DNA of 64,000 nucleotides, from assembly GCA_017506865.1 (NCBI GenBank), contig JAFCMP010000468.1:124001-188000 (forward strand). The letters are read 5' to 3'. The number at the start of each line of letters is the position of its first letter. Within the stretch, counting starts at the first letter, position 1. Below the pieces are notes generated by a model that was not told the DNA's origin, ran no database searches, and saw only the letters and a list, made by a program, of their open reading frames with translations. Below, one piece after another: positions 43,675 to 61,090 of this stretch. The stretch comes from Tribonema minus (taxonomy: Eukaryota; Sar; Xanthophyceae; Tribonematales; Tribonemataceae). A program made the position numbers and the translations under genes.

Positions 43675-43866
43675 CTACGCGCCAACGGGGTAGCCGCCGT
43701 ACGCGACGCCGCCGATGTGCGCCGAGCCGGCGGCAGCAGCGGCGGCGGCGCCGGCAGCGCGCTCCGTCGTGTCCTTCATGGCGGCGGCGGCGTCGCTTAC
43801 GAGGGCGCGCACAGCGTGGACGGCGGCGGGGTCGGACGCGTACGCGCCGGGGATGCCGCGCCCTAG
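42949..43866 (+). CDS. Long unrecognised open frame antisense to the end of the annexin-TerD gene
   Basis: The frame is 305 codons and lacks an ATG at its left end (it opens at a GTG). The first half contains YHTVRTYKYISQYRLCNCG and a cysteine-rich stretch. The second half is Gly/Ser-rich because it crosses a GGC repeat, then runs antisense through the last exon of the annexin-TerD gene. The right part is almost certainly a shadow of that GC-rich exon. No family is recognised. Confidence 0.18.
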   Translation: MSICQGTTDQQNNQTSLTYLPCEPVISCIRFVLEYSVTGQHPDYAITHHATDSDPKSSPADIYHTVRTYKYISQYRLCNCGRTYSSSNFCQDNPYCRLDARSTALHWSRDPSSTDSPARARRKQRGACTYREQGSSVGWCQHVPMFVLKRTSLRRCCNGRLSTAITQHALNAQPPQPAFAVAAFNTGPLRVKMDELCASRCAGGGGGNAGGSGRAGGSGSAGGSGSTGGSGGSASRSGNVRSLRANGVAAVRDAADVRRAGGSSGGGAGSALRRVLHGGGGVAYEGAHSVDGGGVGRVRAGDAAP

Positions 43867-46800
43867 CGCGCAGTACATCCAGCCCATGGGGCTGCGCTTG
43901 AGCCTGCGCGCGCACGAACGAAGGTATTGGAAAGTTGGTGAATGCGTGACGGCGAGGAGCGGTGGTGCGTGCGTTTCGAAGCAGAGAAGTGACGTGAGTC
44001 CGAGGGGTGCGATACGTTTGCCCCATGGGGATGCAGGCCGTCCTGCAGGTGTGCCGTTGGCGATTGTGAGCAGCAGCGCACAGGAGGGCAAAGCGTGCAT
44101 GAGGGAGAGTCTACTGGCCTCCGCGGGCAGGTTTCGGTGCAGGGCCGCCATAGCAGCATGCGCAATCACTTTTAAAAGTCTCCCGCTGCCGTGAGCAGCA
44201 GGCACCAGGGATGAACGGCGCAGTGACGTCAAGTCCACCGGTGTTTGGCATGGGGCATGCGTCTTAAGCTTCAAGTAAGCTGCTGGTGCACGTGCAGCCC
44301 ATGCTTCGTAGGTATTCCTGCAAAGTGCTGGCATCTGGTGCTGGGACGGCACGCATTGGCGTGCCACAGAAGCGCAAAATGAGGCAGCATACAGGCTCTT
44401 GGTGCACTGCGTGTGCAATGGCCGCGCCGGCGCCGCACGGGGCGAGCAACGGCGGACGGCCGCAAAACTTCAACTTTAAGCTCACAGTGACTTGCAATGG
44501 ACTGCAGTGCTGCGCACAACATGCGCCACCGAAGCGGAGCGGGTGCAGTGGAAGAGGGGTGGAACATGGCTTGAACTGCATTGGGCGCTGCTGCTGACCG
44601 CGCACTGTCGAGCCTGCGCTGCCGTCCAGCATCGTGTCATTGGATGCCAACAATTTCCTTTCCAGAGTACATGATCCCCCCAGCTCACATGCCTTACAAA
44701 GCAGCATTATTTTGCTTCACAGTGGTGTGAGAGAGTCACTCACATGGCGAAGGCAACGCCGCGCTCCTTGATCTGCGCGCCGAGGCGGTAGTTGGCGCAC
44801 ACGTGCTGCGTGCGCGGCAGGAAGAGGCGCGCGTACGCATTGCCGACGTCCGCGAACGTGGCGTCCGCGCTGTAGCAGTGCACCGTGAAGACCTGCGCGC
44901 AGAGCGGAGCGTCATCGTTGGTGTTGAAGTTCAACTATGAAGTATGAATGATGAAATGTGCGCGGCAGGAAGAGGTGCGCAAACGCATTGCCCATGTCCA
45001 CGAACGTGGCGTCCGGGCTGTAGCAGTGCACAGTGAAGACCTGCGCGCACAACGGAGCGTCATCGTTGGTGTTCAACTGCAATTGTGAACAACAAAACTA
45101 AAAGGCTTATGTTTTGAACAGAGGTGGCTTCCGAGGGGTGATAGGCCGGGGAGGCAGGACTTGAGGTTGACGTGCCAGTATGAGGGTGTTGCGATGTGCC
45201 CACACCTTGAAGTAAGGTGACAGCACAGCCATGGCATTACGCATTTAGCGAAGGCGTCTGCTTCGTCAGCAACGGTTTCAGCCGTCACGGCGGCAAGGAC
45301 CACGAGGGTGCGCGGCGCCGGAAAATAGGCGCATTGACTGTGGGCGTCGCACTCACTCTTTACTTGTTGGGGCACACTAGTATCTTGTAGCACACAATGC
45401 CAGATTCACATGGGCTCGATCTAACATTCATGGTGCACTGTTTGCATCGTGGCCGATTGCCGCAGCAGCGGCGACCACGGTTATCAGTGGCAATCTAACA
45501 TTCACGGTGCGCTCTTTGACTCGTGGCCGATTGCCGCAGCTGCGGCGACCACGGTCACTGGTGGAAGGCATTCAATTGGACGGCTTACCACACTTGTCAC
45601 CTGGAGCTCTACGATCTCTTGGTTCGTTTCCATTCCTCATGTCGACATGTCAACTTCAAGTTCAACACTCACCAGCGCGTCCACCTCGTACGGCACGTCC
45701 CCGAGCCGCACCACGACGCTCTCGTCGTCCCCCTTCCCCTCCCCCGTGCGGTTGTCGCCGCCGTAGGCGACCCCCGGCGCCGCCTTGTTCCCGTAGAAGA
45801 CCACCCCCTCGGTCTCCCCCCGCGCGCTGAGCATCACCACGCCGGCGTCCAGATCAATAGCGCGCCCGCGCGTGTCCCAGCCGAGCCCCACCGCCAGCGC
45901 CTCCGTCATGTCCTTGCTGCACACGCCAACGTCCCCCGCGCACAGCGACACCGTGCGCGCGTCGCTGAGCTGGGTGACGGCGGGCGCGCGGGGGCGCGGG
46001 GGGGGTCTACTGAGCGCTACCCTCAGGGGGGACAGGTCCAGGGGGTCGGGGGTCGCCACCCACGCGCGCGCGGCGGCGCGGAAGTCGCCGGAGAGCTCCG
46101 AGTCCAGCGCCTCGGTGAGGGTTACGCCGTATGTGGACAGGTACGCGTCGGCGATGTCGAGCAGCTCGCACTTGTCGTGGCCGCCGAGGACGCGCACGAC
46201 GGCGGCCTCGTCCGTCTGCAATGCAGCGGCGTCACAGTTGAGGTTGCAGTTGCTGGTGAGGAGTTGGAGGTCGGTTGTGGCAGCAGCGCTCTGCTGCGGC
46301 TGGACGTCAATTGAAGGTCAGAGAGCTAGGACGTTGAACGTCAATTGAAGGTCGGAGGGCTAGGACATTGAGCAGCTCGCACTTGTCGTGGTCGCCAAGG
46401 ACACGCACGACGGCGACCTCGTCTGTCTGCACGGGCGTCACAGTTTGAGGTTGCGGGTGAGAAGTCAAAGGTCAGCTGTGGTTGAACATCAGAGAGCTAG
46501 GATGTCGAACAGCTCACGCGTGTCGCGGCGGCCGCTGGGGACGCGCATGACGGCGACGGCCTTGCCCGTCTGCGGGAGCGTCACATTTGAGGTTGGAAGT
46601 AGAGGTCAGGAAGCGAATGAGACGCGCGTCACTTCAGAGACGCACGTCCTCAGCGTCAGCATGCTCACACTTCTGCAGCCGGAGATGCAGGCACTGGCGG
46701 CTAAACCTGTCCGCAGAGTCAAAGTCGCATTGTCTGGTGTGGTGGGTGGGGCGTCCTTTCTCTCAGAGTACTCTGCGCCGCTCTGTGCGTTGTGTTTGCA

Positions 46801-49800
46801 ACTGCTTGTAGTTCAGACTCGGCACCACAAATTGACGCACACACACTCCGTGTTGACTGCGACAGTGCTCAGACGAAAACGCGAGCGAACGTGGGCTCAC
46901 CCCCAGCCCCTTGAAGGCGCGGTTCAGCACGCGCGCGAAGAACTCCGTGGGCGCGTACAGCAGCGCCACCAGCGCGTCCTCGAGGTCGCCGCTCGTCTCG
47001 CGCTCGATGGCGTTGCGCAGCGAGTGGCCGTACGCCCGCTCGTACGCGTCCTTGATCGCCTCGATCTGCGCAGACGCACGCCGAGCAACAGCTTTAGGGT
47101 GGCGTCGTGGGTATGTGAGTATCTGCAGCAGTCTGCTGATTTGAGCAGCAGCAGGGAGGCGCATGCCTCAGAGTGAGGGGCTGATCCAGGGCTACCACCC
47201 TTGATCGCGTCAACCTGCGCGGACGCTCGCCGAGCAGTAGCAGCAGCGCGACGTCATGGGCATATCTGCATACGTCATGGGTACGTAGGTATCTGACGAC
47301 CGTGGATTCACTTCACCTGCGCGCGCGACGACTTGGTGAACGTGTTCATGAACACCCCCTCGTCCGTCCCCCACGCGCCGACGCCGGCGCTGTAGAGGGC
47401 CTGCGCCTGCTGCGCGGCGCGCGCGGGGTCGGCCTGCGCGGACTCGTCGCGCTCGGCCTTGAGGAGCTCCACGATGACGCGCCTGGAGTTTTGGGGGGAG
47501 GGGGGGGGAGTGGAGGGGTATATTAGCGGCGGGACAAAAAACGGGGCGTACAGAGGTGCTGAGCGTTGTCATTGCTCTCTGAAACCCCCCAACAGCTCGC
47601 GGTTGAGCCTGTCGAGGGGCAGCGGCTTGTCATGCAAAGAGGTAGCCACAATACTATCACAGGGCTGGCACTTTGTTCCGGCAGTGAACATCAGGGTATG
47701 CATAATTGTAGGGTGCGCGTATACCTGAAGTCCCCCGACAGCTCGCTGCTCATGAGCGGCTTGCCATGCGGAGGGGCCACCTCAAATCCACCACAGCGCT
47801 ACATAGCAAGGACAGAGTAAGCATGTGCAGTGCGCCTGTACCTGAAGTCCCTTGGCAGCTTGCTGTTGAGTGGGTCGATGAGCGGCTTGTCGTGCAAAGG
47901 GGTAGTCTTAAAGGGCTAGCACTATTTGTCCGAGGCGAAAATCAGGATATGCATACAGGGTGCGCCCGTACCTGAAGTCGGCCGACAGCTCGCTGTTGAG
48001 CCTGTCGATGAGCCGATTGCCATGCGGAGGGGTTGCCTCCAGGGTTAGCACCATTGGTCTGATGCACGGAGCAGGGCATCTAGCGCATGTGCGTACCTGA
48101 AGTCCCCCGACAGTTCGCTGTTGAGGCGGTCGATGAGCGGCTTGTCGTGCTTGGCGTCGTACTTGGCCTTGAGCGCGCGGACGCGCGCGTTGCTGCGCGG
48201 CGCCAGCACCTCGATCAGCATCTGCTCGTTGGTGCCCAGTCCTGCGGTGCAGTCAGGGTTGAAGTCACAGTTAGGGCTGAAGTTGGAACCAGCGGCGTGC
48301 TGTGTAGCATGCCAGGAGCTGCGGGTCGAGCGCACATTCTGCGATGTATCGGCATGCGGCAGCAGCACAGACAGGCCACCGCTGCTTGTGTGCGCACGAC
48401 AGTTGTACTGAGGCGCTCGAGCTAGCCAATTGCAGCACTGCGGAGTGGGGCTGCTCTGTGTGGTTTTGATGTGGCCAGGGCAGCGTCTGCGGGCATCGAG
48501 CTGCACTGTTACTCTGGGCTTGCGGTAGGCTTTGCAGCAGCTTGCCAGAATACAAACAGAGTCAGGCAAGCGCCTGCTCAGCGTTGCCCTAATCCTAACT
48601 TATAACCCTAAGCCTAGCCCTAGCCCTGACCCTGATGCCAAATCCTCCTCATCAGGCCAACGCTGACCCTGCAGTGGACGCGCTCTCTCTCGCAACCCCT
48701 GGAGCGGCACCCACCGTCGCACGCCTTGCGGACCGTCTCGGCGTCGACCTCGTCGTACGGGCGCACGAGCGCGCACAGCAGGTCCCCTAACCCTGCCGCC
48801 AAACCCTCCCGATCAGATCAACGCTAACCCCAGAGTGTACACTCTCTCTTGCACAAACCCCGCCACACAGCACCCACCGTCGCACGCCTTCCGGACGGTC
48901 TCGGCATCGAACTGACTCATTCACTCTGTTCACTGCAGATGTGAGCTACCCTGTGGATAGCCTCAACCCCTGACCCTACCCCTACCCCTACCCCTACCCT
49001 TAACCCTCGAGCGGATTCACGCGCTTCTTCCACACGGCACGGCACGGCGCAGCACACGCACTGTCGCACGCCTTCCGGACCGTCTCGGCGTCGCACTTGT
49101 GGTACGGGCGCACGAGCGCGCACAGCAGCTCCTTAAGCCCTGATGCCAAACCCTCCTGATCAGATCAACGCTAAAACTAGAGTGGATGCGCTCTCTTTCA
49201 CAGCGCGCGGCGCACGCACCGTCGCACGCCTTCCGGACCGTCTCGGCGTCAAACTCGTCGTACGGGCGCACGAGCGCGCACAGCAGGTCCTCGTAGTTGC
49301 CGCTCGTCTCGCCGCGGATGACGTCGACGAGGCTGCGCTGGTAGAGCGCGTGGTAGGCGCGGTCGACGCGCGCGAGGTGCTCCTTGGTGCGCGCGCACAG
49401 CACGCCGACCAGCGCGCCGTCGTCCGTGCCGAGGCCCTTGCAGGCTCTGCCATGCGTGCAAGAGAGAGAGGGAGGAGCGTCACATTACAGGTTGAAGTTC
49501 CACACGGAAGCGCGGGATGTGCCTTACAAAAAAAGCGCGCTCAATCCCGCAAAATTTCAAGCAAGTAGAACATGGACTTCTACGCCGACCAGCGCGCCGT
49601 CGTCCGTGCCGAGGCCCTTGCACGCCCTGTTGCGGGGAGCGCGCGCAAGCAAGCGGAGAAGGAAGTCACATCCAGAGGACGCCAAGAGGCACGAGGCATT
49701 TTGGGAATCACTGTCCTCAATCTCCGCCAGCGCACGACCATGTAAGGCTTGGCAGTACCGCCGATTGATGACTGCGCCGTCGTCCGTGCCCTCGCAGGCC

Positions 49801-50595
49801 CTGGCGTAGGGAGAGCACGGGGAGGAGCGTCACATCAGGACTTGAAGTTGCACACGGAAGCACGAATATGTGCCTCACAGAACAAGCATGCAGAAACTCA
49901 AGCGAATGAAACATGGACTTACACGCCGATTTGCGCGCCGTCGACCGTGCCGAGGCCCTTGCAGGCCGTGAACACCAGGAAGCATGAGTCAGCGACCTCT
50001 GCCTCCGCCAGACGCTGTAGTGCGTGGACTCATGGAGTGCGCAATTTTCTATGCCGGGCCCCCCGCAGGCCCTGCCGGCCGTGCGCGCGAGCGCGAGAGC
50101 GCAGAGAAGCGCCACACCAAAAGTACCACAAAGAACAGCAGAAAGCCAGCACAGGAGTTCCTTGTACAGCGCCCCCCAGCTATCCCCAGCGCCAGCAGGT
50201 GTGGCATGTAATGTAAGGGCTTGCACGCTGTTGCCACCCGTGCTGATGCCCTTGCAGGCCCCTGCCTCACGCACACGCACGAGCGATAGAGAGAGAGAGC
50301 CGCCGTGCATGCACAAACGTCCTTGCGCCAGTGAAGGCAACGTTGTACGCATGCGGTGCGTCAGGCTCTCGCGCCAGCAAAATTGATGCTCTATAGGTAT
50401 ATACTGCTATACATATATACTTCAGAAGTATGTATTTATACACTTTACCTGTGGATCAGTATGGCGTCATTCTCCGCTATGTACGCGCGGATGTTCTCCC
50501 GCTCCGCCACCAGGTGCTTGGCGAGTGCCACCGGCTCGGTCGGACGCCCCTTGTACTCCAGGCCCTTGGTGGGGTCGCGGCCGTTGCACCTGCTC

Positions 50596-50626
<31 letters not shown>

Positions 50627-53600
50627 AGGGGCTGTCAACGGAAGAGCATGGCGATGCTCAGCATCACAGTGGGTGCTTGCAGGGGGGGGGGGGTGCTGTG
50701 GGTAGCCCCCGCGGAGCGTGCAAAGCGTGTGCCATGAGCGCTGTGTGAAAACATGTCAAGAACTGTAAGCAGTGGTGCATGTACCTTGTGTGCCTGAGCG
50801 TCATGCGCAATGTGTCCGAATTGACTGCAGTCGTACGTGTACTTCAATTACTGGCGTGTTGTCTGCGGTATCGGCGACCGCGCCTAGGCTGTACAGCAGC
50901 TGAGGTACAAGCAAGTGCGGTGCAGGTGACATGCCACTACGAGTGCTCGCCGGGCAATCGCGGCGGCCTGCACATTGCCGCCTGCCTGCTGTGGTGAAGC
51001 ACAATGGTCAAATGCATCACTGCAGAAGAGGCACTGCAGTAGTACTTTATTTACTTCCGCTCAAGGGGCGGAAACCCTATTCTGCACCACGTCACATACA
51101 ACAGTGCGCTCCTACTGAGCTTGTGCGCGCTGTCCCTGCTAGGACCATCCTTCTGAAGTACACAACCGCGCGCTACTGCAGTACTTGCAGGTGACGTGCC
51201 GACAGCAGCAGTGCTCACCAGGCGATGGCGGCCTTAAAGTCGCTACCCAAAAGCCTCTCCCGGGCTGTGGCGCTGATGTCGACACCCATCAGCACCGCCT
51301 CTCTGACACAAACAAGTCGAGGTAGTGTATGTAGCATTCGTATGTCCCCTGTGTATCTCATGCTGGGAGTGTTCAACCTGGGACCACAACATATCTCGCT
51401 CGCAACTACGCCGACAACCGTCATTGACACCAGCAGTGCTCACCAGGCGATGGCGGCGGCCTTGAAGTCGCCGCCCATGAGCGCCTCCTTGCGCAGAGTC
51501 TCCTGTACTGTCGCGCCGTACGTGTCCAGGTAGGCCTCGCACACGGCGGGCATGAGGCGCTTGTCGGTGCCGCCCAGGATGCGGCACAGCCTGTCGCTGT
51601 CCTGTGACACAATAACGTGCGGCAAAAAAACCGAAGGTAAACATGATGCTGCAATTCCTGAAGACACATCCTGTAATTTAGTGTCACTGGCCTGTGACAA
51701 TAGTATTGGGTCCTGAATGTGAGATGATTTCGCCCCCCAAACACAGCCTGTCGCTGTCCTGTGACACAAGAACGCCGGGGGGGAGGAGTGAGACATCGAT
51801 CGGCGACACACGCGTGCAGACTTTGACGTACAGAAACTCTGGAGTTCCTCAACTACTTTGTATGTTGATTCCTGGAAGCATTTCACCATGTGTTAGCGCC
51901 GCCCCCACTTTTGGGATGATAAAACCTTTCTTTTCTCGAGAGCTTCCGTCCACAAGCATGGACAGTCTCCAGAGCGCTGCAGCAGCTACTGCAGCTATTG
52001 TCAGGCACTGCACTGTAGTTACACGCACATCACAAAAAGCCTCACCACGCCGGCGCCCTCAAGCATTGGCTGTGTAGCCAGCTGCGCTTGGAGCCACCCG
52101 TGCCTCCAGGTTCGAGGTACCAGACAACAGCAAGGCTGCACTGTCAAACGCGATTGAGGTACTTCTGCGCGATTACTCAAACAATTGATGCTACGAATTG
52201 CAGGCACTTCAATTTTTTCATCCTGGCCGTGACCTTTTCCTCGAGCACGGAAACAAACACTTGATTGAACTGAACATATGCTTGTTCGTGCCTTTCACAT
52301 GACGCACATTTTGAATCCATGGTGCAGACATTCTGACCTTTTGCCCCCATAGAAACGTGTGGACGTATCGGAAAATGGCTCACCGCGCCAGCGCCGTCAA
52401 GCGCAGCACGTATCGCGTTGGCAGTGTAGACAGCAGCGCTCGGCTGCAGCAGCTCCACCAGCGCCTCCAGGGTCAGGGCACAAACTCAAAGCAGCGCTAC
52501 CTTGTTGCGGCTAACAGAAACACTGCACAAATACTTCATGTCTAATAGTACAGTATTGCAGAAAAAGAGCCTCACCGCGCCGGCCCCGTCCAGTGCAGCG
52601 TGTATGGCGTTGGCGGTGTAGGCAGCAGCGCTCGGGAAGAGCAGCGCCACCAGTGCCGTTTCCAGCGCGCCGCTCGTTTCCTTCTCGATGGCATGGCGCA
52701 GACTGGAGCCCTGTGCGCGCTCGTACGCGTCCTTGATGGCTTGGATCTGGCCCGCGCGCGCGAATTAGGGTTAGGGTTGGGACTAGGGTTAGGGTTAGGG
52801 TTAGGCGTCAGCGGAGCGGCAGTGGAGTGCTGGGATGACCACAAACCTTCGTATGCGTCCTTGATCGCTTGGACCTGGCGTGAATGCGAGGGCGCAGGGG
52901 ACAAGTCGACGTCAGTCCATGAGCGTCAGCGGTAGTGCGGGGTGATTGACTGGCACTGGACTTGGACTTATGCGGGGGAGTGAGCCAGGGACAGGAAAGT
53001 GTGATGTGACATTTAACATGATGGTGTAGCTCTCAGATTATGCGTGCGCGGTCAGGCCCTGTGCGCGCTCATACGCGTCCTTGATCGCTTGGATCTGGCG
53101 TGTAAGCGCGGTCGCGCGGGTGAGGGTTTGGTTTAGGGATAGGGTTAGGGTTAGGGTTAGGCGTCAGTGGAGCGGCAGTGGAGCGCTGGGATGACCACAA
53201 ACCTCGCACGCGTCCTTCATCGCTTGGACCTGGCGCGCGTGCGGGTTAGGGTTAGAATTTGGGTTAGTTTTAGGGTTAGGGTTAGGTTCAAGGTTAGGGT
53301 GAGACAACCCTGGGGCAAAATTGACGTAGATCAGCAATAAAAGTGCGGCAGTGGAGTGCTGGGGTGGTCAAAACTGGCATTGAAGTTGGCTGCATTTGGG
53401 GGAATGAGCCAAGGGCACACAAGCACGATGTTACTTGCAAAGCGTGATGTTGCTCCAAGTACCGATGGGCACCGGGTCCAGCCGTGCTGCAGAAATACTT
53501 AGCAGGGAGTCCTACAGGGCAAATACTAGCTTCAAGTAAAGGCTTAAAAATTCAACCAATGTCCCGCCGCTCCATCACCTGCGCACGTGACTGCCGGCCC

Positions 53601-56600
53601 AGTATGTCGATGATGATCGCCTCATCTGTTCCCATGTGCCCGGCGCCGGCTTTGCCAATGTTCTTTAATGATGCATGGTGTAATCTTCAACAAATTACCT
53701 TGCGAGCTACACTTCAAGTAAATGACGCTCCATCACCTGTGCGCGCGACTGCCGGCCCAGGATGTCGATGAACGTCGCCTCATCCGTGCCCATGCGCCCC
53801 GCGCCGGCCTTGCTGCGGTTATTGTAGAGCGTGGTGTAAACTTCAACAAACTACATTGTGAGCTACACCTCAAGTAAATGACTCTCCATCACCTGCGCCC
53901 ATTACTTCCGGCCCAGTATGTCGATGAACATTACCTTGTCCGCGCCCATGCGGCCCACGCCAGCCTTGGTATGCATGCTTGAAACTTCAACCTTGTTAGC
54001 TACTTCAAGTACCGTAAAGGACGCTCCATCACCTGCGCGCGCGACTGCCGGCCCAGGATGTCGATGAACGTTGCCTCGTCTGTGCCCATGCGCCCTGCGC
54101 CAGCCTTGTACAGCGCCTTGGCCTGCGCCGCCGCCTCCGCCGCGTCGACCGTCGTGCTCTCGCTCTTGCCGCCGGAAAACTGTAGACGCGTCCGGCAAGG
54201 CAGACACAAGCGGTTGTTGAGCGTGGATGCGAGATCAATCCTCGAAGCCTATTGGTGGTGGTAACACTGTGATGACCTGAGATGCTTGATGAGTACTTCG
54301 AAGTATGTACATGATGCGTGTGTTGAACTGTCCGTGGTATTGATAACGGCTGCCGTGGTCTGGCAGGCACTTGCTGCCGGAAGGCTGCGGGCGCATGCGC
54401 GCGGTGCGGTCTCGCGAGCAGTCGGCGCATCGCGCGCGTTTCAAGTGCAGGGTTCACTACTGGCTTTGCATCTGTGGTACTTCGTTGGTCTGGGCTGCGA
54501 GTGCGACTGCCTGACTGATGTGTTGGACTGTCGGCGGCGGGTGTGCACGACACACCAGCAAGCCGAGCGATGCCCTCGCTTACATTCTTGTAAAGTAATC
54601 TGCTGTGCTAGCATTTCGCGCCCTGACACGGGTGCCAACACTGGTGTCTGGCAAGTGCGCATGATTCGCATGCAAGCTGTGAGACTGGCAATCTCAACAC
54701 AGAAGTACGCATCACCACTGGCAAAAGTGACGGCTTGCAGCACATTGCGCATTGAGGCTGGTGCAGGTTTCAGTGGCGGCGCAGCTACCAAAACAGTATT
54801 CCCGTAGCGCACAGGTGCAGCGTTACCTGCAGAACCAGCAGCTTCTTGATGTCCTTGCTGAACACGCCAAACTCCTTGTTCAGGGTGTCCACAAGGGTGG
54901 CATTGTTCTGCGAGTCGTACTTAGCCTTGATGGCCGCCTGGGGGGGAGGGGGGAGTGAATGGGCGCAGGCACAGAGTATTAGCACACTCCGTTATGTCAA
55001 CACGTGTCTGCATTACAAGTGTCATTTGCCTGTGCTAGATGTGTCATACACGTGGTGTACGCACTTGCACTTGCCCTTGATGGCCGCCTTTTGACGGGAG
55101 GGAAGGCAACGGCGCCAGGCGCAGCACATTCGCACACTCATACATCAACATGGGGGGGGGGGGGGGGGGTGACAGGGGGGCGCTAGGCACAACATCAACA
55201 CAGGCACAGCATCTTGGCACACTCAGATACGACAACATATGCCTGCGTTACAAGTGTCATCTGCCTGTGCTAGATGTGACGCGCCAAGGGTTGGTTCTGT
55301 GGCGCGCCGCGCGTTGACTGGCGAACATACTGAAGGCCATGTGGGATGAACCAGCGCGGTGAAGTCATTATCTGTAGTGTTCACGCGCGCACACGGTGTT
55401 CAGCAAGCAGACAGCGGGCAAACCATTAATTATGTGAGTGGCGGTGAGAAAAGTTGTACCTGCGCCTCGCGCCAGTGCGCCAGTGACTCGCCGAATGCCT
55501 AGGTTGTGCTCCCAAGGTTGCGCTTCATATCCTTCGACACACCAGTTATGCTTTAACAACGGTGTTAGTTGCCTTTTCAAGACCAGTAGCATGGACAAAC
55601 TATGCAGGCTCATACGCTTTTCGTTTCAGTTGCCCGATCCATGTACGAAGAAACACATACATGCGTAGAGGCCGCCGTAACAGTGGACCAAGCAAGTACT
55701 CTGCGCGTCAAACTGCAAGCGTGGCCCATGCAGTGACCAGAACTCCTAACTCACAGCTCCGCACTGGTTATTCACAAGCAGAAATGGAAGCTCAGTGCAC
55801 GGCCAGGGGCTGTTGTGAGATCAGAGCAAGCGAGTACGGCAACGACCAACAAGAGCGAGTGCCCCCACGCATTGACCAGAGCTCGTCACTCACCAGCTCC
55901 GCGTTGGTGCGCGTGTTGACCAGGTCAACCAGGGCACCCTCATCTGCAGCGGCGCAAGTGGTGATGAGAGGAACCGGCGTCAGACCGCGCGCGCTTGCAG
56001 ACGGCGCACAGACGTTCAAACGCGACCGTTGTCAGCGAGAGCAGATCTTCTGCAAGGAGTTGTTGAAGTTGATTGTGGGGCTCGGGGAAGGGAGTGACAT
56101 GTGCCGCTGCGTGTGTGTCGCAGGAGCTACGGCGTGGCACAGGCGCGCACTCCTCCTTCCTTCAGACAAACTGTCACTCCAACTCAAGGCGAGCCGATTG
56201 CAGTTCCTCACCACACCATAACTGTGCTTCTGCCTCTACAGAATACATGAGGCCTGTATAGTGCCCACATGCATGCTCTGGGCGCTGAGCTGCAATTCAA
56301 ACACTACAACCAGCACTGTGGCAGAACAGCATGGCACCTCTGTATGTCTGAAACACTTGTCATCTCTCTGAACTACCCAATACGTGCACTGCAGCTGCTA
56401 TTGCATCAGGCTGTTGAAGCAATGAACTCTGATTGTACTTGCGGAGATTCCAGCTCACTTCAACAGGTGACGTGCACGCAACTCACCGGTGCTGCGGCGC
56501 CGAGCGTGGAGGAGGGGGGCGCGAATCGCAGGACACACAACATGCACAGCGCAAAAGGCACAGCAGAGGGTGAGGTGAGCGGCGGACACGAAATCAGTTA

Positions 56601-59600
56601 CTGAGAAGCCACAAGATGGGCGTTGCAACTGATAAACGAATACAATACGCCCTTACAGGGGCAGTGGATGGGCACTGCTTCAAGCGTACTCAGGCCACAT
56701 TTCACCCCCCCCCTACCCCCTTGATCAGGTGGCAAAGGGGCTCAAGACGCGGCGGCAGCACTGCTCCCTCCTCTGCATTGGTCACGTGGCCACAGCCGCC
56801 GGGCGCAGCAGTCGCACGTATGGTGGCAGCGCTCATACACATTGCCCGACGACCGTGTTCGCTTGCAGTGTCGTTCGGGTGTCCGTGCGTCTGCGTCCGC
56901 TCAAGCAGCAGCAGCAGCAGCGATGCTCAACCCATGCCCGTGGCCGCTGCGGTGAACGCCTGCCCCGACGTCCCTCCGCGCATACGCCATCACCTTCGCC
57001 AAAGCATTATATGACAATACCTACATACTGTCAACAGTATACGTACCCCACGCCCTTGGTCGCGTTCATGAAGACCTGCGTCAACATCTTGCACGTGTAC
57101 ACCATCACCTTTGCCAAAGCATTACATGACAATACCTACGTACCGTCAGCAACATACTACCCCACACCCTTGGTCGCGTTGGTGAAGACCTGCGCGCCGT
57201 AGTCGTCGACGTCCTACATGAGACCTACATAGCGTTAGCATTATACGTACCCCACGCCCTTGGTCGCGTTGGTGAAGACCTGCGCGCCATAGTCGTCTAC
57301 GTCCTGCAGCGCGTACACCATCATCTTGCCAAACCCGCCGCTCACGTCGCCCGACACCACCTGCCGCAGCGTCTTGCCGTACTGCGCGACGCTCGCAGCG
57401 CTCAGCAGATCCAGCTGGGCCTGCGCAGTGTAGTTTATAATAATGATTGCATGATTATCGCAAGGGGCATGGCATGTAGGTATCAGTGACGCCAACAACG
57501 CTCAGCAGATGCAGCTGGGCCTGCGCAGTGCATAATACAAATGAAACTGCAAGGGGCATGGCACGCAAGTATCAGGGACGCTCACAACGCTCAGCAGATC
57601 CAGCTGGGCCAGCGCAGTGCAAGTACACGGTAACAGGTGCAACAATGATCCTTGGGGCCAGCGCATATGTAGCCTGCATGGTGCTGCAGTATGGCTGCGG
57701 AGGCAGCTGCAACCCCGCGCAGCGCGTCATGGCTGGGGTGCGGGGGGGCACGTTATGCACGCATCAGCGAGGGTTGCTGTGCTCAGCACATCTGGCCCGA
57801 GGCCGTGCCATGTCACCCTCCAGCAGCCCAACCCTAAACCCAAACTCTAATACTACCCCTAATCCTAACCCTGACCCTGAGAGATCGGCTTTGCCCGGCG
57901 CATACGCTTCCTGCTAGCAGCGCCGTTGTGTTCACAGGCACCCAAGCAACGTAGCGATGGCAGTCCTCGGCGCTGTGCGTGTGCAGCCTAGGGCCGATGC
58001 TCAGAGCGAGGCACAGGACGGCGCTGCGAGTCTGGATGGCCGTGTTAGGGTTAGGGTTAGGGTTAGGGCCCGTGCAGCTCGAGGCCCATGCTCAATGGCG
58101 AGGCATGAGGCGACGCTGCGGGTCCGGACGGCGAAAATTTCAGCTCGTGAAGTGTCGAGCTTCCCATCGCTGTTCCTAAGTTTCACGTGCCTCCAGTGAC
58201 GCACACAACCAGAAGTGCCTTTGCACCAGGTCTTGCACATCGCTCGTCGCTCAGCCCAATCCAACGCTGATCTTACGAAACAGCTCCTGCGGAATGACTC
58301 CACCTCTCGAGAGCTGCAATACCTTCATTGCCGGCCGCTTATCTCCAAAGTGTGCAAAGCATAGCCGCCCGTGGCACACTCTACAAGCGCCTCACAGTCT
58401 TGCCCTATGACTGCTCGGCTCGCTGCGGCTTATACAAACAACAACAAAGCACGCGCTATTCGCTGAGCGACACTCGTAATTGCCAGCTGCGCTCACCTTG
58501 GTGCGGTTGCAGAGGACCTCCACCTGCGGCGCACGGACAAGATCAAGTTCGAAATCAACGGAGAGTTCAACATCAACGTGAGCAGCGGCCAAGGCACAAT
58601 AGTTGTACATTTGTATGCATGTATGTATATGATGTACACATGTATGCGCCGTGGCAGCGCTCAGCATAGATGTATGTTTGTTTACTTCAAAGCATGATGT
58701 ATGTAGGCATACGGTCGGAGCCGCCAGCGCCCAGCGCGTGACACGCGCCACGTGTCTGATCGCCCCGCGCTGAGACACGACACTGCTCAAATTTCCACTT
58801 CAGTTTCTCCTCTGTGCAAACTGCTAGGATTTTGTGTTCACTCTACTTTCTCTGCTGGCTCAGCCAGCGCCGCCAGGTGCCCAGCAGCGTGCGATGCACG
58901 AAGCAGAAAGATAAAAAGGGTGGCACGTCGCAGTCAAGCGTCTAACTTCGTGTGGTGACTTGCCGCACGCCGCTCGACACTGGGCGACGCGATGCTGTGC
59001 AACGGCAGTGTAAGGACCCTAACGCTGACAGTAATCCTAACCCCACTAATCCTCACAACCATGTTGGTCCCACAACAGGTCCCAAACGCTGCGGCTCTGC
59101 AGTTTTGGGACCCTTGCCGAGCGTCTGCCTTCATGTGGTGACTCGCCGCACGCCGCTCGACACTGGGCGACGCAAAGCCGTGCTACGGCAGTGTTCAAAC
59201 CTCAACCCTAGCCGTTACCCTAACCCTAATTTTGACAACCACGACGGTCCCACAACGGCTCACACGCGCTGCTGCACTGCAGTTTTGTCAGCCCACTCAC
59301 GCAGCACCGGCGTCAACTGCCCACCGATGTGAGTGCATTGCCACCATGCGCAGGTAGGACTCTGAGCCATGGCACTCGGTGTGGGCGCGTCACATATTTC
59401 AAGTAGAAGTATAGCACTGCCTTGCAGGACAAGGTGCTGCTCACGCGCTGCTCAGAATGTCCCGCTGCTCAGAATGTCCAAAGTACAATTTTCCCAGGGT
59501 CAGCACAGTCGCAACAGACGCATCTTGCACAAGGCGCCTTGCCCGCTGGCGCTGCACTACAGACAAGATTGGCACATGTTGTGGTATTTGTCTGATGTGT

Positions 59601-61090
59601 GTGCACAGCGCAGAAAGCAGCTTCCTTCCTGCGAGTGCTCCCGCACATATTCGCATTTTTTGGTAGCCCTCAGCATACAGCAGCTGGGCACGCGCATATT
59701 TGCTTCGTGAACCTACCAAACAAGCGCCTGTAGTCGGCATTCAGCTCCGCGCGCTGGTCTTGCCGCACAAAACAACACAGCACTTGCGGACTCGCGTCCT
59801 CAGAAGCTGCGGCTGCCAAAGTGCTTCAGTCAGCACGTCACGGAAGCTACGCACTTGCTGTGACCCACGCTTTACTACAGTGGATAGTTGGCGCACGACG
59901 TGAAGTGTGGAAAGCAAGACCTTCCGAGCACTGCTGTAGCAAAGTGTGTCGCATGCAGCAAAGTGTGTAGCTGTAGCAAAGTGCGTAGTGAGTAACAAAT
60001 TGTGCATTTGTGTATTCTGTAGCAAAGCGTGGGTTCTCACCAGGCGGCTCTCGTCCGTTAGCAAGCGAGACCTTCCGAGCTCTGCTGTAGGATGGTGTGT
60101 AGCATGCAGCAAAGCGTGTAGCTGTAGCAAAGTGTGTAAATGTTGCAAAGTGTGTAGTTTGTAGCAAAGTATTGGTTCTCACCAGGCGGCTCTCGTCCGT
60201 GCCCAGCCCGCTGGTGGCCTTGTGCACCGCCTTGGCGTCCTCCGCCGCGATGAATTTCTTGAGCGCGTCGTTTTCCTGGTTGCAAACGGCGTCAGCGAAC
60301 AATCGCCAAGGTGTTTCAGAGGTAGTGCTGAGACAGTTGATGAAGTCTCGAGGGAGTCTGCTTAGTCACCACGTGCACCCTGCACAGGCGCCATAAGGCT
60401 AGGACGGCATAATTGGCGTGGTGGCACAGAAGCTCCGCTCTGCCGCTTGGCGTTGCTCGAATTGGTCGCGAGCGGCGTCAGCAAACAATCGCACGTTATG
60501 TGGATGTAGTGTTCAGGGGCATTTGTGGTGTAAGTAGTCTCGTGGAGCTTGGTTGCTCACAACTTGCATCCTGCGCTGGCACACAGCTAGGTTGTGACCA
60601 CACGTTCAATATGGTGGTACAGAAGCTCTGCTCTGCCGCTTGCTGTTGCTTGCATTGCTGCCTAGATGTTCTGGAGCCTAGATGCAAGCTTTTGCTGCTG
60701 CCGCCAAAACATTTACCGCGAACAAAAACACCACTAGGCATGCAGCTTCCACCCGCCGCTGCAGCAGTTCTACTGCCGGCTAGAGACCTCACAGAAGGGC
60801 TCAGCCTATATGCATTTGTAGATTTCATCTGTGACTCGTACGGGGGCTTGCGCACTTACGGCAATCAAACATGCGTGCAGCAAACCGCAATGAACAAGCC
60901 CTCGCAATGTGCATGCGCTTACTCTAGGGAACACGACGAAACCAAGGAACGAGCGACAGATGAGATCGTCGTTGTTACGCTGCCGGTCACAGCTGCGTAC
61001 CTCCGCTAGAGCCTTGGTGACATCAGGAAGCTTGCTCGGCTCCATGGAGTCGATCTGGGCGTCTGTCACGCTTGCCATTACTGCGGCCAT
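43675..61090 (-). CDS. Octad annexin fused to a C-terminal TerD domain
   Basis: I infer 18 minus-strand exons: 61090-61001, 60275-60183, 58523-58497, 57420-57251, 56491-56487, 55943-55894, 54937-54827, 54179-54033, 52746-52576, 51601-51444, 50589-50449, 49446-49220, 48241-48097, 47482-47317, 47065-46901, 46215-45673, 44892-44744, 43903-43675. They total 2787 nt in one frame, giving 928 residues. Eight annexin repeats are marked by calcium-loop motifs at about 53 (GLGTDE), 125 (GVGTDE), 213 (MGTDE), 285 (GAGADSD, degenerate), 392 (GLGTDD), 464 (GLGTNE), 549 (WGTDE) and 620 (GLGTDE). Spacings of 72, 88, 72, then 72, 85, 71 show two normal annexin tetrads, as in vertebrate annexin A6. Residues ~730-880 are a TerD domain: GLGWD, IDLDAG, VVFYGNK, GDNRTGEGKGDDE, then VFTVHCYSADATFADVGNAY and GWMYCALGRG. 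No signal peptide is present, so it is cytosolic and probably binds membranes with calcium. The tail is Ala-rich. Confidence 0.87.
44960..45050 (-). repeat. Head echo of annexin-TerD exon 17
   Basis: The copy matches the exon 17 acceptor (GCGCAG|GTCTTCACTGTGCAC) and about 80 nt of exon. It is interrupted relative to the real exon and lies 160 bp upstream in transcript order. The flanking CGGAGCGTCATCGTTGGTGT block is repeated too, so the unit includes intron. Confidence 0.75.
45430..45640 (-). repeat. Dispersed repeat family R2, inverted copy with internal duplication
   Basis: The block CGTGGCCGATTGCCGCAG..GCGGCGACCACGG occurs twice (about 45449-45481 and 45523-45557). It is followed by TGGTGGAAGG and, after a spacer, CTTGTCACCTGGAGCTCTACGATC and GTTTCC. 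This is the reverse of the copies at 3692 and 7800. It lies in intron 16. Confidence 0.6.
46320..46575 (-). repeat. Two head echoes of annexin-TerD exon 16
   Basis: Copies at about 46365-46435 and 46500-46575 carry CTGCAG or CCCGCAG acceptors and the first 60-70 nt of exon 16 (ACGGACGAGG..GTCGTGCGCG). They diverge by several substitutions. Flanking CAGAGAGCTAGGA blocks are also repeated. Confidence 0.72.
47585..48035 (-). repeat. Four tail echoes of annexin-TerD exon 13
   Basis: Copies at about 47587-47640, 47722-47775, 47838-47905 and 47968-48032 share the exon tail TCGATGAGC..CTGTCGGGGGACTTCAG and the AG|GTAC donor (or its remains). They continue into intron. Spacing is about 115-135 bp. 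All are downstream of the real exon (48241-48097). Confidence 0.75.
48585..49140 (-). repeat. Tail echoes of annexin-TerD exon 12 mixed with TTAGGG-type repeats
   Basis: Copies of the exon 12 tail (ACCTGCTGTGCGCGCTCGTG..AAGGCGTGCGACG|GT) lie at about 48705-48790, 48880-48915 and 49055-49135. Each is embedded in a unit of about 170 bp with GATCAGATCAACGCTAA-like and CTAACCCT blocks. Degenerate CCCTAA repeats occur at 48587-48640 and 48960-49008. The real exon tail is at 49220. Confidence 0.75.
49570..50270 (-). repeat. Head echoes of annexin-TerD exon 12
   Basis: Copies of the exon 12 head (GGCCTCGGCACGGACGACGG..) occur at about 49580-49630, 49770-49805 and 49920-49970, with weaker traces near 50055-50080 and 50235-50265. 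Each continues into GAGAG-rich and TCACATC..GAAGTT intron sequence that is also shared. The real exon starts at 49446. Confidence 0.7.
52755..53300 (-). repeat. TTAGGG-type interstitial repeats with exon 9 head echoes
   Basis: TTAGGG or near-TTAGGG runs occur at 52767-52806, 53128-53160 and 53243-53300. Between them are copies of the exon 9 head (GATCCAAGCGATCAAGGACG..) at about 52845-52880, 53055-53100 and 53205-53235. The repeat unit therefore joins an exon head, its acceptor and telomere-like intron sequence. Confidence 0.78.
53555..53975 (-). repeat. Three tail echoes of annexin-TerD exon 8
   Basis: Copies at about 53570-53655, 53737-53815 and 53885-53970 match the last 70-80 nt of exon 8 (MGTDEATFIDILGRQSRAQ region) with the CAG|GTGATGGAG donor. 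They are separated by AACTTCAA..GTAGCTCAC intron blocks. Spacing is about 150-165 bp. The real exon is 54179-54033. Confidence 0.78.
56487..56491 (-). other. Candidate 5-nt microexon of the annexin-TerD gene
   Basis: The sequence reads gccgcag|CACCG|gtgagt on the minus strand. Exon 4 ends in GTG GG and exon 6 starts AT GAG, so only the 5 nt C-ACC-G makes GGC ACC GAT GAG, restoring the invariant Gly-Thr-Asp-Glu of annexin repeat 2. Without it the frame breaks. Confidence 0.6.
57040..57220 (-). repeat. Two tail echoes of annexin-TerD exon 4
   Basis: Copies at about 57045-57080 and 57160-57215 match the exon 4 tail (GGTCTTCACCAACGCGACCA AGGGCGTGGG) and keep a GT after GGG. Head echoes of the same exon lie at about 57490-57530 and 57585-57620. 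Confidence 0.7.
57825..59235 (-). repeat. Interstitial telomere-like repeats in annexin-TerD introns 2 and 3
   Basis: CCCTAA-type runs at 57827-57870 and TTAGGG-type runs at 58044-58069 lie in intron 3, and CCCTAA-type runs at 59016-59046 and 59203-59231 in intron 2. Orientation differs between runs. A 150-bp direct repeat around 58955-59300 (GTGGTGACT..CGCCGCACGCCGCTCGACAC) carries the last two. Confidence 0.7.

Follow-up and report, generated by a model that had tools for sequence, protein, structure and literature searches.

The stretch of the Tribonema minus genome analysed here, hereafter the window, comprises 64,000 nucleotides (C468:124001-188000; assembly of 158.18 Mb in 554 contigs; Xanthophyceae, Stramenopiles). 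Judging from its sequence, a locus on the minus strand is almost certainly one gene for an octad annexin, that is two annexin tetrads, followed on a linker by a C-terminal TerD domain, the two parts being fused at the level of the gene. The gene runs from an ATG at 61090, with an in-frame stop 5' of it, to a TAG at 43675; its 18 exons join into one frame of 928 amino acids with no stop inside, and all 17 introns of the final model are GT-AG. An earlier note, made from the letters of this DNA, had proposed 18 exons in one frame between 43675 and 61090, and our model agrees with it in the exon count and, to the base, at both ends.

A profile search (hmmscan) of the final protein found eight stretches of Annexin (PF00191; E 9.2e-130, 423.3 bits versus a curated cut-off of 25) and one of TerD (PF02342; residues 725-872, E 5e-27, 95 bits versus a cut-off of 25.3), the latter spanning profile positions 19-178 of 187. 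The two tetrads and the canonical TerD that the note had read, with GLGWD, IDLDAG and GDNRTGEGKGDDE, are thus in place. A linker rich in Pro and Ala, some 45 residues long, separates annexin from TerD, and exon 16 holds both the last annexin repeat and the start of TerD with no intron at the domain boundary, as had been stated. Both domains are known, and the novelty of the gene lies in their combination rather than in a system of a new type. Its features are listed below; C490 and C13 denote two TerD-bearing paralogs, and P0003 is a EukProt transcript from a close relative of C490 (a 699-residue open reading frame, ORF, labelled complete and 98% identical to the annexin part of C490).

61001..61090, minus strand: exon 1, start codon at 61090, residues 1-30; homologous N-terminus in transcript P0003
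60183..60275, minus strand: exon 2, residues 31-61; annexin repeat 1 begins (GLGTDE)
58497..58523, minus strand: exon 3, 27 nucleotides, residues 62-70; P0003 has the identical join
57251..57420, minus strand: exon 4, residues 71-127; remainder of repeat 1
56487..56491, minus strand: exon 5, micro-exon of 5 nucleotides (CACCG) needed to complete GVGTDE in repeat 2; also in C490 and C13
55894..55943, minus strand: exon 6, residues 129-145; repeat 2
54827..54937, minus strand: exon 7, residues 146-182; repeat 2
54033..54179, minus strand: exon 8, residues 183-231; repeats 2/3
52576..52746, minus strand: exon 9, residues 232-288; repeat 3
51444..51601, minus strand: exon 10, residues 289-341; repeat 4
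50449..50589, minus strand: exon 11, residues 341-388; connector linking the two annexin tetrads
49220..49446, minus strand: exon 12, residues 388-464; repeat 5
48097..48241, minus strand: exon 13, residues 464-512; repeat 6
47317..47482, minus strand: exon 14, residues 512-567; repeats 6/7
46901..47065, minus strand: exon 15, residues 568-622; repeat 7
45673..46215, minus strand: exon 16, residues 623-803; a single frame from repeat 8 through the Pro/Ala-rich linker to the N-terminal half of TerD
45673..45909, minus strand: TerD part of exon 16, from residue 725; GLGWD, DLDAG, GDNRTGEGKGDDE and 10/10 calcium-ligand positions
44958..45040, minus strand: additional, degenerate copy of exon 17 (its first 83 nucleotides) in intron 16, outside the model
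44744..44892, minus strand: exon 17, residues 804-853; middle of TerD (VFTVHCYSADATF...)
43675..43903, minus strand: exon 18; last part of TerD, followed by an Ala/Gly-rich tail and the stop codon

Paralogs and relatives

Searched in six frames, the complete genome yielded 24 matches to the annexin repeat, all of them at one of four loci (C468, C490, C13 and C335), whose joined products carry eight annexin stretches each (that of C490 without its first two exons). Octad annexins, which the earlier note had called rare, are therefore not so in T. minus, where 4/4 annexin loci found are of this type. TerD family matches numbered three genome-wide, following closely on the annexin repeats at C468, C490 and C13, and a TerD query at E <= 10 placed 7/7 of its matches at the same three loci; these searches took the best candidates only, exon by exon, so that the counts are lower bounds. 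The octads of the three TerD-bearing paralogs share 64-67% amino-acid identity. The counterpart of exon 16 in C490 is a single uninterrupted exon (113035-112583), and in C13 two introns lie within the matching region. A false linker intron in the automatic C490 model was corrected by hand.

In a tree of the repeats of the four Tribonema octads and of the relative P0002 (see below), repeats 2/6, 3/7 and 4/8 pair by position and 1/5 fall together with weak support, which suggests that the octad arose by doubling of a tetrad. The fourth of the octad genes (C335:36042-42962; L016, L017) continues beyond repeat 8 with an acidic stretch rich in Ser and Asp, and neither the family search nor a scan of its product gave a TerD match; a spliced alignment continuing past repeat 8 was discarded as spurious. 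Searched exon by exon, so that small exons can be missed, the genome yielded no TerB, and TerC matches on C544, C518 and C68 rather than on the annexin-TerD contigs; The grouping of TerD with terB and terC that characterises the ter tellurite-resistance system was thus not found. Among the neighbours in the window, 22 ORFs measure 190 amino acids or more from stop to stop; the 10 that were scanned gave a single match, which lies below threshold and is regarded as chance.

Annexin and TerD were also found together in seven proteins (P0001, P0002 and P0011-P0015), five of them rescanned and confirmed, of a database that comprises 5.8 billion; two of the searches made in it scored only the 8000 best candidates each. 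One search with nine hits gave the combination in two (P0001, P0002); a second, with three hits, returned the same two and a C2-TerD protein (P0010); and in a third the 120 hits listed of 557 comprise five annexin-TerD proteins (P0011-P0015), 114 with TerD only and one C2-TerD (P0054). P0011-P0015 are ORF pieces running from annexin into TerD, called from precomputed domains; three of them were rescanned. The sequences of P0011-P0013 stop precisely at GVAFAM, the end of exon 17 of the window gene, which suggests that they may share this intron position. P0002, of 924 amino acids, was called from a 27-kb metagenome contig and, given this source, is presumably encoded in an uninterrupted, intronless frame; over the octad it shares 54% identity with the window gene. 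That the join is no accident, as had been argued from exon 16, is supported by its recurrence in two paralogs on other contigs, in P0002 and in the five ORF pieces. The host itself, with three annexin-TerD loci, is a xanthophyte and so belongs to the stramenopiles, among which the earlier note had suggested looking for this architecture.

P0001 (T. minus JKP88DRAFT_280489, 'Annexin' in UniRef) is the C490 paralog, deposited with both domains. In its deposited model ARWGTDERVF and GVAFA are each doubled and pieces present in transcript P0003 are missing; the doubled segments are exon-edge segments, and some repeat pieces are absent as well, so that database models of these genes appear unreliable. 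The annexin-TerD fusion was not found in the open-licence literature searched, including that on the Tribonema genome, some listings being partial. The architecture thus looks undescribed in that literature, yet already deposited without remark: that no established fusion was known, as the earlier note put it, holds for the literature searched, but P0001 already stood in NCBI and UniRef with both domains.

A tree of 15 TerD sequences, unrooted and made up of four bacterial, two C2-TerD and nine annexin-TerD members, separates the annexin-TerD set from the others with a support of 0.968. The C2-TerD proteins, P0010 with two C2 stretches and P0054 from a EukProt transcriptome labelled Phypoly, differ from the window gene in having C2 in place of annexin and form a separate branch. 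Viral contigs searched with P0002 gave 15 pattern matches and no relative, and searched with a TerD alignment 126 pattern matches and one TerD-like locus (L025). In prokaryote genome contigs, 320 matches to two patterns from the octad alignment contained no relative, a weak negative with two patterns only.

Micro-exon and introns

In an earlier 17-exon draft with hand-placed exons, which gave a nearly identical Pfam result, 15/16 introns had GT-AG ends and agreed in phase, which left one odd junction; the non-canonical intron between exons 4 and 6 was rejected and replaced by the micro-exon CACCG. This junction needs GG + N-AC-N-G + AT, and CACCG at 56491-56487 is flanked by CAG and GTGAGT. 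The pattern CAG-NACCG-GTGAGT, formulated post hoc after the hits had been seen, occurs once in the matching intron of each TerD-bearing paralog (3/3), versus a mean of 0.0000 in 2000 dinucleotide shuffles of each intron, and a looser pattern was observed once per intron against 0.19-0.26 expected. Transcript P0003 has GVGTD at this site.

Two other candidate pieces were rejected as exons. The first is 59756-59715 (QRAELNADYRRLF); exon 3 completes repeat 1 at 58523-58497, with a join that P0003 shares. A piece near 45309-45244 (TLVVLAAV...) was dismissed as a TerD exon because exons 16 and 17 join in phase and the aligned relatives have no counterpart there.

The introns of the window gene (61000 to 43904) carry degenerate copies of the adjoining exon edge, anchored at the splice site (for example 53968-53893, 53812-53737, 53654-53579, 49133-49063, 48785-48715 and 45040-44958). 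By blastn, 23/24 matches are to the flanking exon, and all 23 reach to within 2 nucleotides of the exon edge; the corresponding figures are 24/24 flanking with 22 at the edge in C13, and 22/23 flanking with 17 at the edge in C490. These introns thus seem to grow via repeated duplication of exon-intron junctions. Short interstitial TTAGGG/CCCTAA-like runs also lie inside the introns (52766-52806, 53136-53160, 53240-53300, 58041-58070 and 48590-48640).

Calcium sites and known systems

The type-II calcium motif GxGT[DN], with D/E at +39, is present in repeats 1, 2, 5, 6 and 8 of the window protein. Repeat 4 reads GAGAD, the threonine being lost, and repeats 3 (RMGTDE) and 7 (AWGTDE) fall outside the pattern. 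In TerD, Ca2+ binding has been reported for the Klebsiella protein (PMC8123226, PMC8779313), whose Ca1 and Ca2 ligands are given as positions 29, 40-42, 78, 79, 82, 84, 88 and 89 (PMC8779313). Mapped by alignment, 10/10 of these positions are identical in the window protein, and 9/10 are kept in C13, C490, P0002 and P0011-P0013.

Each half of the protein has a well-known counterpart. Annexin A6 (annexin VI; PDB 1avc / 1m9i) likewise has two tetrads per chain and is the best sequence match of P0002 (E 4e-90), with 26% identity in the fold alignment; it is not known to carry TerD. The TerD of the bacterial ter system (PDB 2kxt, 3ibz) aligns over most of the window TerD (E 7.9e-24 to 2kxt), and the GDNRTGEG-x-GDDES loop is identical save one residue; unlike it, the window TerD is joined to annexins and encoded by a eukaryotic gene that is spliced. 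Bacterial annexins combine their repeats with other domains, e.g., putative proteases or a colicin domain, and TerD is not mentioned in that text (PMC3894181).

The fold was predicted with AlphaFold2 for the relative P0002 (nine sequences), and the results apply to that model. Its mean predicted local distance difference test score (pLDDT) is 73.6; 10-residue blocks of the octad mostly score 75-92, and the linker (residues 696-745) falls below 50. A Foldseek search ranked annexin VI (1avc) first (E 3.7e-32), and against single-annexin chains the template modelling (TM) score by target was mostly 0.85-0.94.

Possible function and competing explanations

The best overall explanation, to which we give a probability of roughly 0.7, is an octad annexin-TerD gene in a family of three paralogs, acting as follows. 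By analogy with its two halves, the protein may mediate Ca2+-triggered membrane docking or bridging with a tethered Ca2+-binding TerD, a mechanism that has in our judgement even odds of being correct. It is the most economical reading because of what is known of annexins and because bacterial TerD is reported to bind Ca2+. Upon a rise in cytosolic Ca2+, the annexin core would bind acidic phospholipids, and the two tetrads could bridge two membranes or two patches, as has been proposed for those of annexin A6. The tethered TerD would thereby be brought to the membrane, bind Ca2+ itself and recruit or sense a stress-related ligand, with membrane repair or Ca2+/stress handling as the likely setting.

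This ligand could possibly be nucleotide-like, and a somewhat unlikely alternative goes further and regards TerD as a receptor for a soluble nucleotide-like signal, the annexin merely holding it at the membrane. TerD is listed among nucleotide-binding domains and might recognise specialised nucleotide derivatives (PMC7159879), and both TerD and TerE resemble a cAMP-binding protein of Dictyostelium (PMC8123226). The complete set of calcium ligands in the window TerD and the Ca2+ binding reported for the Klebsiella domain nevertheless favour a calcium-binding TerD, and the two roles are compatible.

The octad annexin-TerD protein is very probably translated as such. The earlier note had named transcripts ending before TerD, or profiles rejecting either domain, as evidence that would speak against the fusion; the profiles accept both domains, and one such transcript exists, from a close relative of the C490 paralog. 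This transcript, P0003, stops in the linker, at PALPPH, before TerD, so that an annexin-only isoform is possible at least in its source, and its end may reflect alternative splicing or an assembly break. Several further observations weigh on the same side. The annexin-TerD junction and the TerD exons of the window gene are known here from the genome alone, and a near-identical long record of this gene was not among the 8000 best candidates scored (roughly 510-1624 amino acids). P0015 and P0014 keep 7/10 and 5/10 of the TerD ligand positions. In the P0002 model, strands are predicted for TerD with low confidence, blocks being mostly at a pLDDT of 35-75, and no TerD chain appears among the 50 fold matches listed. 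Over the whole chain, annexin VI superposes poorly, at a TM score of 0.44 by target (root-mean-square deviation 27.6), and the arrangement of the two tetrads is therefore without support. Finally, the ratio of nonsynonymous to synonymous substitution (dN/dS; NG86), rough at a third-position GC content of 0.85-0.92, is 0.28-0.51 in the tetrads, 0.27-0.64 in the connector between them, 0.61-0.79 in TerD and 0.73-0.88 in the linker: in these comparisons TerD is under constraint, yet evolving faster than the annexin part.

One could thus picture a mainly annexin-only protein whose TerD tail is optional, alternatively spliced or in decay, a reading for which the early end of P0003, the fourth octad gene with no TerD match, the higher dN/dS of TerD and the ligands lost in P0014 and P0015 all speak. 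We hold this to be unlikely, however. In the three paralog pairs (3/3), amino-acid identity exceeds a base-permutation null in TerD (z 4.7-6.6) as well as in annexin (z 15.2-15.9), and much less so in the linker (z 1.3-2.5); the window copy has an intact ligand set, and TerD is kept in three of the four annexin genes. The stretch of C490 that matches the end of P0003 is moreover very G+C-rich, so that this end may be an assembly break. An annexin gene wrongly joined across its border to a neighbouring TerD gene, which the reading of the window fusion from genomic DNA and the early end of P0003 would allow, is highly improbable given that a single exon, in both the window gene and C490, encodes repeat 8 together with half of TerD in one frame, that the 924-residue P0002 presumably comes from an uninterrupted frame, and that five further pieces cross the border and three paralogs keep the order.

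We therefore return to an octad annexin-TerD gene whose product would act at membranes under Ca2+. More tentatively, and with the odds somewhat against it, annexin-TerD proteins may form a distinct eukaryotic class of Ca2+ effectors, derived from one fusion event and kept in several later lineages, with TerD acting at the membrane under Ca2+ control. TerD is also carried by the flagellum attachment zone proteins FAZ28 and FAZ30 of T. brucei (PMC10953051), and according to a 2014 study of bacterial annexins such additional domains had not been described for the annexins of eukaryotes (PMC3894181). In Tribonema, three paralogs join an octad annexin to a conserved stress domain of bacterial type, and the same combination occurs in sequences of other origin; all TerD domains found in the T. 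minus genome searches sit on annexins. To our knowledge, the role of TerD in eukaryotes is poorly known, and its covalent tie to a well-understood Ca2+-dependent membrane domain offers a direct, testable hypothesis on it. If such a class exists, then together with the separate C2-TerD fusions it would mean that eukaryotic TerD is generally a Ca2+-gated membrane-stress module, repeatedly coupled to Ca2+-dependent lipid-binding domains.

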